NCBI GenBank assembly: GCA_945867155.1 | Contig: CAMBHL010000003.1 | Span: 1-64,000 of the forward strand | Reading direction: 5' to 3' | DNA from: an uncultured Eubacteriaceae bacterium | GTDB taxonomy: Bacteria; Bacillota; Clostridia; Eubacteriales; Eubacteriaceae | Length of the DNA: 64,000 nt | Shown here: positions 8,847-16,131 of the stretch, one piece after another | Layout: every line of letters starts with the position of its first letter | How positions within the stretch are numbered: the first letter of the stretch is position 1 | Translations under genes and position numbers: made by a program | The notes under the pieces: generated by a model | Told to the model about the DNA's origin: nothing | Seen by the model: the letters and a program-made list of their open reading frames with translations, nothing else | The model's database searches: none

Positions 8847-9565
8847 TCAACAACTGGATGCTAACCTGTACCTTACAGGCGCATCCAGTTTGTTTTTTTC
8901 TGAATCCGCTTGTTGTTGTAATACTGCATATATTTTCTTATTGCCTTGCTGAACACTTCAAATGATTTATATTTCTTTTCCTCGCCATAATACATTTCGT
9001 TTTTTAATCGTCCGAAGAAGGTTTCCATGATGCAGTTGTCATAACAGTTTCCTTTTCTGGACATTGACTGAATAATTCCGTGCTCTCTTAAAGTTTTTCG
9101 ATAGAACCAGTGTTAGTACTGCCAGCCCTGATCCAAGTGCATAATTAGTCCTTCGACATGAGGAAACTTTTTGAAGGCCTGCTGTAGCATTCTTTTAATC
9201 TGTTCTATATTGGGACTTAAAGATAAATCGTACGCAATGATCTCGTTCGTGTGCATGTCAAGAATGGGAGAAAGGCAGCATTTCCCCCAGGAGAAGTTGA
9301 ACTGGCTGACATCGGTTGTCCATTTCTCTAACGGTGCTTTCGTGCTGAAATCTCTGTCAATGATATTGTCGGCAATCTTCCCAACAGTCCCTATATAGGA
9401 ATGATATTTTTCCTTCGGACGTTTGCCGCAGAGGCTCATTTGATGCATCAGTCTCTGGACCCTTTTATTGTTGACCTTATGGCCCTGATTCACCAACTCT
9501 TGGAATCCTTTTTCCCGGAGGTCTTTGATGATCGCTGCTTTTTCGCCCTGAGTTACGCAGCTTCC
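8847..9565 (-). pseudogene. IS3-family OrfB (DDE integrase), broken
   Basis: This carries the integrase core of the transposase: the first catalytic Asp in WTTDVSQF, the second in ILDMHTNEII, and the Glu in NCIMETFFGRLK. A TAA at about 9115-9113 replaces a Gln between GWQY and HWFY. Near the end a poly-A run seems one base short: restoring one A gives the normal family ending APVRYRLAS to a stop at 8847. The reading frame is -1 relative to OrfA, so translation would need the usual IS3 frameshift. Both lesions make this copy inactive. Confidence 0.9.
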
Positions 9566-10077
9566 TTTTCTTCTCTTAAGGCGATCTCTTTTTTTATGAC
9601 TGCGTTCTCCGCTTTGATATAGGCGTTCTTGGCTCTCAGCCTTATCAGTTCCTCATACTCAGACTCTTTTATTGGTCGTCTAGGATTATTGATGTTGATT
9701 TTTTTCTTCATGGTCATGGACGGTTTCCTCGATTTTCTTCCTTTGCGTTTGTTTACCAGTCCATTATACCCCTCTTCTTTATATTTGCGCACCCATTGGC
9801 AAAGCATGCCGCTATTAATCCCAGCAAAGCAAGCAACTGAGCAAAGTGAATTCCCGGCAAGCACCTGTGACACCAAAACCAGTTTGTCTTCAGAGGACCA
9901 CTTTCTTTGGTGTTTTGAATGCTTTAATGCTTCAGGTCCATTCCTTTTTTCAATTTCTGACCATGTGCGAATCGTGTTATGAAAGTTATGAGTAGAAATA
10001 CCATCTGGCGTTTTAGGCCATCTTCCAGATCTGTAAAGTTCTACACATTTCAACTTAAACTCAAAACTATAACGCAT
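9553..10077 (-). CDS. IS3-family OrfA
   Basis: A 174-aa DNA-binding protein of the IS. The start at 10077 (MRYSFEFK) has an AAGGAGG site and lies inside the IS; the longer frame to 10158 would run outside the element. There are two helix-turn-helix units, about residues 8-45 and 75-110, then a Lys-rich linker and a leucine-zipper-like C-terminus (RLRAKNAYIKAENAVIKKEI). Close to its end an A4G run in GAAGAAAAGGAA is a candidate -1 slippage site leading into OrfB. The frame is intact. Confidence 0.88.
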   Translation of the reverse strand: MRYSFEFKLKCVELYRSGRWPKTPDGISTHNFHNTIRTWSEIEKRNGPEALKHSKHQRKWSSEDKLVLVSQVLAGNSLCSVACFAGINSGMLCQWVRKYKEEGYNGLVNKRKGRKSRKPSMTMKKKININNPRRPIKESEYEELIRLRAKNAYIKAENAVIKKEIALREEKEAA

Positions 10078-10124
10078 AAAATTACCCTCCTTACTGGTTG
10101 TCCAGTAAAGAGGGTACATATCAA

Positions 10125-10137
10125 TTGCTGGCGTTAT
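10125..10137. repeat. Right arm of an IS-split terminator hairpin
   Basis: TTGCTGGCGTTAT, the exact inverted complement of 8787-8799, directly after the IS end and 10 bases before the pgm stop codon. Confidence 0.8.
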
Positions 10138-10147
10138 ATCATAAAAT

Positions 10148-11632
10148 TTATTTTTCAATCATCTTATATTGACTTAAAAATTCATCAATCTTGCTTAAAA
10201 TTGTTTGACAGCCACCTTTTTCTTCTGACTCAATATTGGTAGGCAGTTTGGGCTCATGCAGGCTAAGCCGCATTAAACACCAGCCATTACCATGATCTTG
10301 GTCACAATTTACGCGAACACCTTCGTAATTAGGTTGAACTAAAGACCATCCTGGTTGCTGGTCAGCAAACGCTTTAAAATCTTCTAAAACCTTTTCTCCG
10401 CTTTTTCTAAAGTGATCTCCTGTAATGTGATAACGAACTTCCAATGATTCCTGTGGTTCTTTTAAATCATCCACAAAACTTGAAATCGGCTTTCCTTCTT
10501 GTTTCATGTTATACAGTTCAACCAATGCTAATGTCGCTAAATATGCGCCATCGTCTAAGAAATAGTTATCTTTCAGAGCGCCATGGCCACTTGTTTCCAT
10601 TGCCAAATAAGCGGGATTTCCTTCTTCATTTAAACGGATGGCCTCATTAATGACATTTCGGTATCCTCTCTTAAAACGATGATGATGCCCACCGAGTTTT
10701 TCAATAAAATCAGTTAAACCCGTTGACGTTACCGAGTCCGTAACAATCGTCGATCCTGGATACTTCTTAAGTACAATTTTAGAAATAAAAGCAATAAATG
10801 CATTGCGATTAATTGGATTGCCTTTTTCATCAATAATTGCACTTCTATCGACATCTGTGTCAAAAATGATTCCCATATCCGCATGATTTTTTTTCACCAT
10901 TTTTACTGCAGATGCCATCGCTTCTGGATCTTCAGGATTCGGAATATGATGAGGGAAATGACCATCTGGGTTCAAATATTGAGAGCCCTTTGTTTCAGCT
11001 CCTAATGGTTTTAAAACGTCATCAACAAAGAAACCGCCTGCACCGTTCCCAGCATCAACTACAATGTGCAAACCATCCAATGGCTTGATCTTTTTAGTCG
11101 TCGTTCGAATGATGCCCACAATGTTTGCCGCGTAAGCTTTAAGGAAATCTGAAGCTATTCTCTTTCCACCTAAAAAAGAAGTTTCAATTTCTTCTGCTTC
11201 GTGTAAAAGGCTTGACAATTGATTTTTTTCTATCCCGCCACGTTTTGTAAAAAATTTTATCCCATTTCGATTAGCAGGCAAATGACTGGCCGTAATCATC
11301 ACTGCACCATCACACTTTAAGTATGGATCAACTGTTGTCATAAACATCGCTGGCGTCGTTGAAAGCCCACAGTCATATACAATAGCACCAGAGCACACAG
11401 CGCCAACACACGCTGCTTGTGCTAAAAATTCACCTGATACTCTGCTGTCTCTGCCAATTGCCAATTTGATATGCTGCTTTCCTGTCTGTTTTTTAATTCT
11501 TTCAGCAAAAGTATAAACAATTTTCATTGTTTTATTATCATCAAGATTTACTTCTTCGCCAGGTACTCCCTTTGCTGCTACACCGCGAACATCCGTTCCG
11601 TTTTGCAGCTCCACAATGCCCCGTAAAATCAT
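10148..11632 (-). CDS. Phosphoglucomutase/phosphomannomutase family protein
   Basis: A 494-aa alpha-D-phosphohexomutase that moves phosphate between C1 and C6 of a hexose (glucose, mannose or an amino sugar). The four-domain signature is visible: active-site loop TASHLPANRNG near 117, metal-binding loop DTDVDRSAI near 260, sugar-binding METSGHG near 345, and a phosphate-binding C-terminal domain. The exact sugar cannot be told; the active-site loop has TASHLP rather than the common TASHNP. It starts 13 bases after argF, so the two are co-transcribed. Its terminator has been split by the IS. Confidence 0.88.
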   Translation of the reverse strand: MILRGIVELQNGTDVRGVAAKGVPGEEVNLDDNKTMKIVYTFAERIKKQTGKQHIKLAIGRDSRVSGEFLAQAACVGAVCSGAIVYDCGLSTTPAMFMTTVDPYLKCDGAVMITASHLPANRNGIKFFTKRGGIEKNQLSSLLHEAEEIETSFLGGKRIASDFLKAYAANIVGIIRTTTKKIKPLDGLHIVVDAGNGAGGFFVDDVLKPLGAETKGSQYLNPDGHFPHHIPNPEDPEAMASAVKMVKKNHADMGIIFDTDVDRSAIIDEKGNPINRNAFIAFISKIVLKKYPGSTIVTDSVTSTGLTDFIEKLGGHHHRFKRGYRNVINEAIRLNEEGNPAYLAMETSGHGALKDNYFLDDGAYLATLALVELYNMKQEGKPISSFVDDLKEPQESLEVRYHITGDHFRKSGEKVLEDFKAFADQQPGWSLVQPNYEGVRVNCDQDHGNGWCLMRLSLHEPKLPTNIESEEKGGCQTILSKIDEFLSQYKMIEK

Positions 11633-12722: not shown

Positions 12723-12748
12723 AACCGAAGGATCTTATTCCTTCGGTT
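12723..12748 (-). terminator. Terminator of the fur-ppi operon
   Basis: AACCGAAGGA (12723-12732) pairs with 12739-12748 around TCTTAT. The minus-strand tail is TTTTTTCAG. Confidence 0.85.
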
Positions 12749-12763
12749 ATATGAATTCTATTA

Positions 12764-13264
12764 TCATTCTTTTTCAATTCGAATCGTTGCAATTTGCTGA
12801 TCTTCTAAAGGTTTATCCCACATATCTCTTTCTGCAGAAACAATTTTATCAACTGTTTCCATACCTTCCGTTACTTTGCCAAATGCTGCATAATCGCCAT
12901 CTAAATGCGGCGCATCAGCAACCATAATAAAGAACTGAGAACCTGCAGAATTAGGATCCATAGCTCTTGCCATGGACAAAACGCCACGTTCATGCTTAAG
13001 ATTATTGACAACGCCGTTCGAAGCAAACTCACCCTTAATGGAATATCCAGGGCCACCCATACCATTTCCATCTGGATCTCCGCCCTGAATCATAAAGCCT
13101 GGGATAACACGATGAAAAATAAGTCCATCATAAAATTTTTCATCTATCAGTTTTACAAAATTTTCAACTGTAATCGGAGCAACATCCGGATATAATTCTG
13201 CTTTAATGACGCCGCCATCTTTCATTTCGATTTTAATATTAACAGGGTTCTTTGCATTTTCCAT
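12764..13264 (-). CDS. Cyclophilin-type peptidyl-prolyl cis-trans isomerase
   Basis: A 166-aa cytoplasmic cyclophilin (no signal peptide) that speeds proline isomerisation in protein folding. The core motifs are FHRVIPGFMIQGGDP (catalytic Arg, near 52-66), GVLSMAR near 94, and SAGSQFFIM near 107. Length is that of a single-domain bacterial enzyme. It starts 14 bases after the Fur-family gene and ends at a good terminator, so it forms a two-gene operon with the regulator. Confidence 0.95.
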   Translation of the reverse strand: MENAKNPVNIKIEMKDGGVIKAELYPDVAPITVENFVKLIDEKFYDGLIFHRVIPGFMIQGGDPDGNGMGGPGYSIKGEFASNGVVNNLKHERGVLSMARAMDPNSAGSQFFIMVADAPHLDGDYAAFGKVTEGMETVDKIVSAERDMWDKPLEDQQIATIRIEKE

Positions 13265-13278
13265 TTTTATTCTCCATA

Positions 13279-13692
13279 TTATTTATAAAGTGTAACCTCA
13301 ATCCGTGCACTTTGCATATCCTGAGGTAATTTATCTGCTAATTTTTTACGAATAAGATCCTCTAACTCACGGTCAAATAAATCAGAAATATGATTATGAT
13401 CTACAAGGTGAATATGAAAATCTGTATTGCCATCATATCGCATCACATCATTTTCATCGTGAACGCGAATAATCAAATGGTGCTTTTCAAAACATTCCAG
13501 CGTATTATAGATTGTTCCCATTGACAGATGCAATCCTTGCTCTTTAATTTTTTTCATCAACATTTCTGCTGTGGGGTGACGTTTTGAGTTTAAGATAATT
13601 TTTAATAATGCGGTTCTTTGAAGCGTAGCTCGTAAGCCAGATCTACGGATGAGTCTAGCGACTTCCTCATGGGTATATTCTCTTTCTTCCAT
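13279..13692 (-). CDS. Fur/PerR-family regulator lacking structural zinc cysteines
   Basis: A 137-aa metalloregulator. The N-terminal winged helix (about 10-80) has GLRATLQRTALLKIIL and the recognition-helix motif LSMGTIYNTLECF. Compared by eye with B. subtilis PerR, the regulatory metal ligands are kept (H39, D87, H93, H95 and an Asp at 104 or 107). The four cysteines of the structural zinc site are absent: the first pair is replaced by Asp98 and His101 (VDHNH), and the C-terminal pair is missing. The only Cys is at 67 in the DNA-binding domain. A perfect palindrome lies just upstream, suggesting autoregulation. Whether it senses peroxide or a metal is unknown. Confidence 0.85.
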   Translation of the reverse strand: MEEREYTHEEVARLIRRSGLRATLQRTALLKIILNSKRHPTAEMLMKKIKEQGLHLSMGTIYNTLECFEKHHLIIRVHDENDVMRYDGNTDFHIHLVDHNHISDLFDRELEDLIRKKLADKLPQDMQSARIEVTLYK

Positions 13693-13708
13693 AAAATCTC
13701 CTCTAGCG

Positions 13709-13733
13709 CTTTATTAGATATATTCTAATAAAG
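13709..13733. promoter_or_regulatory. Perfect palindrome, probable Fur/PerR-type operator
   Basis: CTTTATTAGA, TATAT, TCTAATAAAG: two 10-base arms with no mismatch around a 5-base centre, between the mutS2 stop codon and the fur-like start. It is AT-rich with TTATTAGA/TCTAATAA arms, in the style of PerR/Fur boxes. It lacks a G+C-rich stem or T tail for a strong terminator, although it could also form a weak hairpin after mutS2. Confidence 0.65.
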
Positions 13734-13749
13734 AATCCTTAAAAATCCA

Positions 13750-16131
13750 TTATGATAAACTGACAAATGTTGCGCCTGTTCCGCCTTCTGAAGGATTACC
13801 ATAACGAAATGATTGAACCACACTAGATTGTTTCAAATAATCGCGAACAACTTTTTGTAAAACACCAGTTCCCTTACCATGAATTATTATCAAGTGGTTG
13901 GTTTTTGAAACCACTGCATCAGACAAAAATTTTTCGACCGCAAATCGTGCTTCATCACCTGTCATTCCCCTAATATCCAATGTATTATTCATTTTATGGC
14001 GATCTGATGCCTTTATTTTTTTGGCTATTGGCTTTTTCTCTGTATTTAAATGCTGAATTTGAGACAACTCTCTTAATTTCACCTGAATCTTCATTGGGCC
14101 TATTTGCACGAGTGCTTTCTTTTCATGGGGATTAACTTCAAGAATTTCTCCTTCTTTATTCAGACTTTCAACTAATACAGTGTCTCCAGGCATAATTTTT
14201 TTGGATGAAACTGCCTTTTTCTTATACTTATCCTGACGCTCTTTTTGAATCTGCTTTTGGGATAATTTGGACTGCCGATTAATTTCTTTCCGAAGAGCCT
14301 CTAATTTTTTATTATCAATCGTAGCCTGTGTATTTTCCTGAATAGCCCTAATTTCTTGATAAATTTGTTCGGATTTGTCTTTTGTTTTTTCAATTAAATG
14401 TGCTGCATCATGATGCGCTTTTTGAAGAATTTGATCTCTTTGTTTGTAAATTTCACTGACTTTTTTTTCTGCCGCCTCTACTTTGCGTTCGGCTTCACGC
14501 TCTTTTTGCTGAGCTTGAGCCAAAGTTGTTTCCATTTCTTTTCTCTTTTGGTCGATTAAATCCAGTGTTTCTGAAAATTGGCTGGAATCTGTATCGATAT
14601 AATGCTTAGCCTGTGAAATGATGTCATCACTTAATCCAAGACGATTTGCTATTTCAAAAGCATTTGATTTGCCAGGAACTCCAATTACTAATCGATAAGT
14701 CGGTCGCAGTGTTTTTACATCAAATTCAACAGATGCATTCGTAATCCCCGGCGTCGTCAATGCATATTCCTTCAGTTCAGAGTAATGCGTAGTTGCCACA
14801 GTGATAACGCTGCGGCGATGAAGTTCATTGAGTATAGCCATTGCTAAAGCGGCACCTTCTGTCGGATCTGTACCTGCTCCCAATTCATCGAAAAGAACAA
14901 GATCTCCCTTTTTGGCCCTCTTCATGAAATAAACAATATTGTGCATGTGTGCAGAAAAAGTCGAAAGTGACTGTTCAATACTCTGTTCATCCCCAATATC
15001 TGCAAAAACATCTTGAAACAATCCTGTTGAACTCCCTTCTCGTACGGGAACAAACAAACCGGACTGAATCATTAAAGTTAACAAACCAATGGTCTTAAGA
15101 GTAACCGTCTTTCCGCCAGTATTTGGACCAGTGATCACAATAACTTGAATATTTTTTTGAAAAATAATATTGCTCGCTACAGCTTTTTTCGGATCTAACA
15201 GTGGATGCTTCGCATGAATAAACGAAATATTGCCTTGAGGATTAATCTTTACGCGTACATATCCATTTGATAATGCAAAACTTGCTTTTGCGAAAATAAA
15301 ATCTAATTTAGAAATCATTTTACAGTCTCGTTCGATAACAGCATGATATGCTGCTACTTTAGATGTTAAATCTTCTAAAATTTTAAAGATTTCTTTTTCT
15401 TCTTCTCCTTTTAGTAATTTAAGATCGTTATTCAAATTGACGATGGATAATGGTTCGATGAAAACAGTAGATCCAGTTGACGATTTATCTAAAATAATCC
15501 CTGGAATGCGGTTTCGATATTCTTGCTTTACAGGAATTACATATCGATTATCTCGAATAGTCACTAGGCGGTCTTGTAATATACTCTCATAAGCAGAAGA
15601 TGTTACAATACGATTTAATTTATGAGAAATTTGATTGTTTTTATCAATAATTTCTTTGCGAATATTTGCTAATTTAAGAGAAGCATGATCTGCCATTTCA
15701 TTTGGACCCAAAATTTTTTTTGAAATTTCTTTTTCCAAATCATGACAATCATCAAGCGATTCAAAAAATGGAAGAAGCCGCTGAAGCTCTGATCTTCCCA
15801 TATCGTGATCAAAATAATCTATTAAATCCTTTGACAATCGGAGTAATGATGCGACTTCCAATAAAGATCCCATATCTAAAACAGAGCCGATCTCTGCTTT
15901 ATGTAATATATCTTCAATTTCATTTGTTCGAACCAATGGCGGTTTGCCATTTCTTAAAGACATATTAACCGCTTCTTCTGTTTCATCCAATGCCTTTTCA
16001 ATATCTTCGTATTGATTCATTGGCGTTAACATTAAAGCGTTATTTTTACCTTCTGCTGTTACACAAAAATTTGCCAATTGATTTAATATTTTAGGATACT
16101 CTAAAATATTAAGACTTCTTTTGTTCATCAA
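13750..16131 (-). CDS. mutS2: Endonuclease MutS2
   Basis: A 793-aa MutS-family ATPase. The N-terminal core and clamp (about 1-310) precede the ATPase with Walker A GPNTGGKT near 335, Walker B in DLVLFDELGAGTDPTEGAAL near 410 and a TTHYSELK signature. A coiled coil spans about 515-635. The C-terminal Smr nuclease domain has LDIRG near 717 and HGKGTG near 758. MutS2 proteins act on recombination intermediates and on collided ribosomes. It is last in the rarA-M16C-dacF-U32-mutS2 operon and its start codon directly follows the U32 stop. Confidence 0.95.
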   Translation of the reverse strand: MMNKRSLNILEYPKILNQLANFCVTAEGKNNALMLTPMNQYEDIEKALDETEEAVNMSLRNGKPPLVRTNEIEDILHKAEIGSVLDMGSLLEVASLLRLSKDLIDYFDHDMGRSELQRLLPFFESLDDCHDLEKEISKKILGPNEMADHASLKLANIRKEIIDKNNQISHKLNRIVTSSAYESILQDRLVTIRDNRYVIPVKQEYRNRIPGIILDKSSTGSTVFIEPLSIVNLNNDLKLLKGEEEKEIFKILEDLTSKVAAYHAVIERDCKMISKLDFIFAKASFALSNGYVRVKINPQGNISFIHAKHPLLDPKKAVASNIIFQKNIQVIVITGPNTGGKTVTLKTIGLLTLMIQSGLFVPVREGSSTGLFQDVFADIGDEQSIEQSLSTFSAHMHNIVYFMKRAKKGDLVLFDELGAGTDPTEGAALAMAILNELHRRSVITVATTHYSELKEYALTTPGITNASVEFDVKTLRPTYRLVIGVPGKSNAFEIANRLGLSDDIISQAKHYIDTDSSQFSETLDLIDQKRKEMETTLAQAQQKEREAERKVEAAEKKVSEIYKQRDQILQKAHHDAAHLIEKTKDKSEQIYQEIRAIQENTQATIDNKKLEALRKEINRQSKLSQKQIQKERQDKYKKKAVSSKKIMPGDTVLVESLNKEGEILEVNPHEKKALVQIGPMKIQVKLRELSQIQHLNTEKKPIAKKIKASDRHKMNNTLDIRGMTGDEARFAVEKFLSDAVVSKTNHLIIIHGKGTGVLQKVVRDYLKQSSVVQSFRYGNPSEGGTGATFVSLS

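Follow-up and report, generated by a model that had tools for sequence, protein, structure and literature searches.

The gene at positions 13279–13692 on the minus strand of the window (the window being the whole stretch of DNA analysed, 64,000 nucleotides or 64 kb from an uncultured member of the Eubacteriaceae) encodes a FUR-family regulator of 137 amino acids, here annotated as perR. Structural zinc is usually held to be necessary for the folding and dimerisation of PerR. In the product of this gene C67 is the sole cysteine, and a CxxC motif is lacking. The locus raises the question of what kind of FUR protein it encodes, and whether it can be a peroxide sensor without the structural zinc site. 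A sequence-only reading of this DNA had given the range as 13279–13733; the gene is shorter than this, and the remainder of the range takes in a palindrome at 13709–13733.

Membership of the FUR superfamily follows from the match to PF01475 (E 9.9e-20), which scores 71.3 bits against a curated cut-off of 23.1. AlphaFold2, run on a 49-row alignment of relatives, generates a metal-free monomer model with a mean pLDDT of 90.4 and a pTM of 0.82, so that the protein is confidently predicted to adopt a Fur fold. The closest structures are 1mzb (Z 13.0), 6h1c (12.9), 5fd6 (12.9), 5nl9 (12.4) and 4rb3 (12.3), which are tied within 1, and the top entries found by Foldseek are likewise FUR-family proteins. 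It is of interest that 5nl9, a PerR from Leptospira, is among the best full-length fold matches, with an rmsd of 2.6 over 128 residues.

Within the superfamily, two residues mark a PerR as opposed to a Fur, in B. subtilis PerR numbering: helix H4 carries an asparagine (N61), and position 104 is an aspartate; the Fur counterparts are arginine and glutamate (PMC8638851, in the text available). The regulatory ligands of PerR are given as H37, D85, H91, H93 and D104 in the available part of PMC4866751, in the same numbering. Both of the marking residues are found in the window protein, as N63 and D104, and all five ligands are matched, as H39, D87, H93, H95 and D104. All of these residues, and also D107, are identical in 25/25 of the proteins aligned for residue conservation (the window protein and 24 Eubacteriaceae-type relatives), which bears out the earlier statement that the regulatory ligands, with Asp 104/107, are kept. 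Searches against solved structures give a similar picture: a profile of 49 relatives has B. subtilis PerR as its top match (E 1.3e-30), while the single window sequence searched against the PDB has 5nl9 as its best hit (E 5.4e-12). All of the PerR and Irr models of NCBIfam score below their cut-offs, the best PerR model reaching 65.4 bits against 180; by their names, the PerR models listed look lineage-specific. The name PerR therefore rests on the residues, the boxes and the target genes, and not on a model.

The palindrome in front of perR consists of two 10-base arms and a 5-base centre, CTTTATTAGA-TATAT-TCTAATAAAG, and sits 16 bases ahead of the perR ATG, within the 57-base gap between perR and mutS2. 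It had been described as a perfect palindrome of 25 bases; the arms are indeed perfect, whereas the central TATAT is not self-complementary. A search allowing up to three mismatches finds it once in the window and in 0/100 shuffled versions, and we take it to be a candidate operator for autoregulation. Its core, TTAGATATATTCTAA (13714–13728, 21 bases before the start of perR), is identical in the nearest genome (G004), and resembles the B. subtilis PerR box, whose consensus is TTATAATNATTATAA in the available text of PMC545781: 12 of 14 positions agree if the G/T and C/A alternatives are allowed.

The sequence-only reading had suggested a genome search for the palindrome, and had named its being unique and unbound as a point against its view; a search across the genome shows that the core is not unique. 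The strict pattern TTAKAWNNNWTMTAA, which is partly post hoc because it was shaped after sites had been seen, occurs at five places in the 1.96-Mb genome, and three of the five precede perR, a thiol peroxidase gene (tpx) and a rubrerythrin gene (rbr). The box lies 28 bases before the tpx start (PRK00522, 205 bits, cut-off 123), and 98 bases from the MADP start of rbr (NF045767, 256.9 bits, cut-off 200). The other two strict boxes precede a ChW-repeat/transglutaminase-domain protein (63 bases before the gene, at C11:35687 of the window genome G000, or L049 4988–5002, the contig ending 158 bases further on) and a membrane protein that, from its sequence, resembles a mechanosensitive channel. At the contig edge next to the ChW-repeat protein box there is what reads as the end of a ribosomal RNA. 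A related site, TTATAGTCATTATAA, lies 22 bases before the gene of an NAD-binding oxidoreductase. The boxes are not enriched in the genome as a whole, the looser pattern TTAKANNNNNTMTAA occurring at 11 places against 29 for the reversed-pattern control, and the strict pattern at 5 against 6. A further site, TTATACCATGTATAA, was seen between genes that read as an HxlR-like regulator and a thioredoxin-like protein (L134 1501–1515; C3:127736 of the same genome), and is likely to be an operator of the HxlR-like regulator rather than a PerR box.

In the relatives, the same four genes (perR, tpx, rbr and that of the oxidoreductase) again have boxes in the nearest genome, some of them with base changes, and in G003 rbr is preceded by the box TTAGAACGACTCTAA. 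The rbr of Pseudoramibacter alactolyticus (G002) has no good box, its best score being 10/14. Ferritin genes are preceded by boxes scoring 13/14 in G002, G005 and G034 and 14/14 in G030, and the stretch upstream of ferritin in G004 scores 11/14. The box before perR itself is a family feature in part only. G004, E. barkeri, E. aggregans and Anaerofustis each have a clear one, whereas that of P. porci is degenerate and P. alactolyticus has none that is clear (9 and 11 of 14, not significant against single-base shuffles), and it is not clear in most Acetobacterium by the same scan and shuffles. Box-like sites found within coding sequence in G003 and G004 were put down to chance.

On the basis of these observations, we consider it very probable that the window protein is an autoregulated PerR peroxide sensor built without a structural zinc site. 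The earlier reading had left its type open as Fur/PerR; N63 and D104, the boxes and the genes behind them narrow this to PerR. It had also proposed a zinc-independent or differently built sensor, and this agrees with the lack of CxxC in the window protein and in 24/24 of its Eubacteriaceae-type relatives, with the absence of conserved replacement ligands (see below), and with the confident Fur fold; that both CxxC pairs of the structural site are gone had been read correctly. For the window PerR itself we infer DNA binding, the metal, the response to peroxide, the stability of the dimer and the operon. The dimer would load Fe(II) (or Mn) at H39-D87-H93-H95-D104, and in this state would bind the PerR boxes before perR, tpx, rbr and probably the NAD-binding oxidoreductase gene. 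Hydrogen peroxide would then oxidise a ligand histidine by way of the bound iron, and the oxidised repressor would release the DNA, allowing the peroxidases to be made. The packing of the dimerisation domain itself would keep it together, with no Zn(Cys)4 involved.

The distribution of such proteins was analysed using trees. The 80 relatives kept have no CxxC in 62 cases, one in 10 and two in 8, in a sample that favours cysteine-free proteins because it was drawn by likeness to the query. In a 92-row tree, the 25 rows of Eubacteriaceae type come out as a single clade (support 100/97) nested in a cysteine-poor clade (73 rows, 99/94). The row for 5nl9 falls outside the cysteine-poor clade in this tree, on a very long branch (2.28) whose placement is unsure. 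A 58-row tree that includes four Irr proteins separates 14 rows, comprising those with two CxxC and two partial rows, from all 44 others (99/93), which are either cysteine-free or have one CxxC pair. When the rows are cut after the regulatory HxH, so that the cysteine site is removed, the same split is found with weaker support (89/86). A clade joining the Eubacteriaceae proteins to the zinc-site proteins of the Firmicutes is rejected by the AU test, with p 0.0056 at full length and 0.034 without the cysteine-site half, for a group that was named after the first tree had been seen. With no CxxC, and with this joint clade rejected, the window protein is not a canonical zinc-site PerR of the Firmicutes. 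Among 245 genomes of the class, matches outside the family start at 32% identity, and of the 15 clostridial matches found outside the family, the 13 that were read to the end (all but L210 and L211) each have two CxxC. The pattern would suit a gain from outside the Firmicutes, the trees fixing neither direction nor root. Ten of the Bacteroidota relatives have the first CxxC pair and lack the second (L093, L098, L099, L101, L111, L119, L121, L122, L127 and L128); this half site is possibly an intermediate state, or possibly serves some other metal or redox use.

The trees also bear on the possibility that the protein is Irr-like: a FUR protein without structural cysteines, whose signal is haem or iron status and not peroxide. 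Irr has haem and iron as its targets, and its operator has TTTAGAA-type half-sites, which resemble the boxes described here. The IrrA model of NCBIfam scores 62.0 bits, near the 65.4 of the best PerR model, and the Irr/IrrA proteins of Alphaproteobacteria fall in the same half of the 58-row tree as the window protein; like it, they have the asparagine and the aspartate and no structural CxxC (PMC8638967, available text). However, the four Irr rows form a clade of their own (100/98) beside alphaproteobacterial and planctomycete rows, while the Eubacteriaceae proteins group with Bacteroidota (96/94), so that the window protein does not fall with the known Irr proteins. The boxes stand before peroxidase genes, and the sole cysteine, C67, lies outside any CP motif. 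An Irr-like function is thus improbable.

A second possibility is that the protein senses iron in the manner of Fur, with peroxidases and ferritin in its regulon by coincidence. The genome (1.96 Mb in 13 contigs) has only one FUR-family match, which is the window protein, and this might then carry iron control too; the ferritin boxes in the relatives would be in keeping with such a role, and Pseudomonas Fur is among the best structural matches (Z 13.0, tied with others). Against this, the two positions that separate the types hold asparagine and not arginine, and aspartate and not glutamate, in every one of the 25 proteins, which are the marks of PerR in the available text of PMC8638851, and no iron-uptake gene was seen behind any of the five strict boxes. 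We therefore regard a Fur-type iron sensor as a little less probable again.

Least probable of all is a structural zinc kept at a different site, for example by D98, H99 and H101 with C-terminal residues: these three residues do occupy the place of the first cysteine pair in the window protein, but a histidine is found at position 99 in only 2/25 proteins, and likewise at position 101 in only 2/25, the D98 column (aligned with the first cysteine position) is D in 9/25 and N in 16/25, a two-residue deletion in the closest group takes out the second cysteine position, and the 25-protein alignment holds no conserved stand-in ligands for the missing cysteines, which rules out a replacement zinc site as a conserved feature. 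The earlier description of the first pair as replaced by Asp98 and His101 thus holds for the window sequence, but not as a conserved substitution.

The surroundings of the zinc-site-free PerR were also analysed. A gene for a cyclophilin-type peptidyl-prolyl isomerase (12764–13264, minus strand; PF00160, E 7.6e-52) lies 14 bases downstream of perR, and is followed by a terminator-like hairpin at 12723–12748 on the minus strand (one found, against 0.5 expected in shuffles). Judging by this arrangement, it is plausible that perR and the cyclophilin gene are co-transcribed as an operon. Upstream is mutS2 (13750–16131, minus strand), in the same direction, which is given for context and not as a component of the switch. 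Across 101 loci (21 and 80 from two homologue searches, with some species in both), the regulator is accompanied by mutS2 in 22, cyclophilin in 17 and rubrerythrin in 3. A rubrerythrin gene was seen within the locus of a cysteine-free regulator in assemblies of Calditrichaceae, Bacteroidetes and Aminicenantes (L088, L105 and L117).

The nearest named relatives are P. porci (77% identity) and P. alactolyticus (53%), so that the host would be a Pseudoramibacter-like member of the Eubacteriaceae. The G+C content of its genome is strongly uneven, being 39% in the window and 55–56% in stretches of other contigs (L047, L048); at the perR locus it is low in relatives too (35% in G004 and 38% in G003). 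Elsewhere in the window, at 9113–10158 on the minus strand, two frames read as the two portions of an IS3-type transposase, of which the second seems to be truncated. A search against plasmid DNA gave no match.

Several characterised systems can be compared with the window protein. PerRA (5nl9) and PerRB of Leptospira interrogans are PerR proteins without a structural metal site, and act as repressors of the peroxide stress response (PMC8638851 and PMC8638967, both from available text). Like the window protein, they keep the asparagine and aspartate of PerR and lack both CxxC pairs, although PerRA comes from another phylum and is only some 23% identical over the fold alignment. Bacillus subtilis PerR (2fe3) has the same five ligands, N61 and D104, and a similar operator, but differs in its Zn(Cys)4 site of C96, C99, C136 and C139 (PMC4866751, in the part available). 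The PerR of Clostridioides difficile is that of a strict anaerobe and represses a rubrerythrin, according to the accessible text of PMC8546684, which has its gene within the rbr1 operon; the window perR, in contrast, lies between mutS2 and the cyclophilin gene, with rbr elsewhere. A PerR without structural zinc is thus already known from Leptospira, and the window protein is less exceptional than the sequence-only reading supposed. What appears to be new, from the alignments and trees, is a whole Eubacteriaceae lineage of zinc-site-free PerR, which groups with proteins from Bacteroidota and further phyla that also lack the zinc site, and apart from the zinc-site PerR proteins of the Firmicutes; literature searches of partial coverage found no report of a cysteine-free PerR in Eubacteriaceae.

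We tentatively suggest, as a reading with somewhat less than an even chance of being right, that the zinc-site-free PerR and Irr proteins make up one of two halves of this region of the FUR family, old and distinct from the other, and that the Eubacteriaceae gained theirs from outside the Firmicutes and use it to switch their peroxide response (the window genome having no other FUR protein), which would give them a dimer that neither zinc loss nor cysteine oxidation can break. On the same reading, the zinc-site-free half spans Bacteroidota, Ignavibacteriota, Calditrichota, Planctomycetota and Alphaproteobacteria. For annotation, the consequence is that a missing CxxC must not be taken as a missing PerR. 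The family contains cultured anaerobes, such as Eubacterium callanderi and Acetobacterium, that have the marks of PerR and no zinc site, and in these the need for zinc can be tested. A PerR of this kind may also matter for the oxygen tolerance of acetogens.
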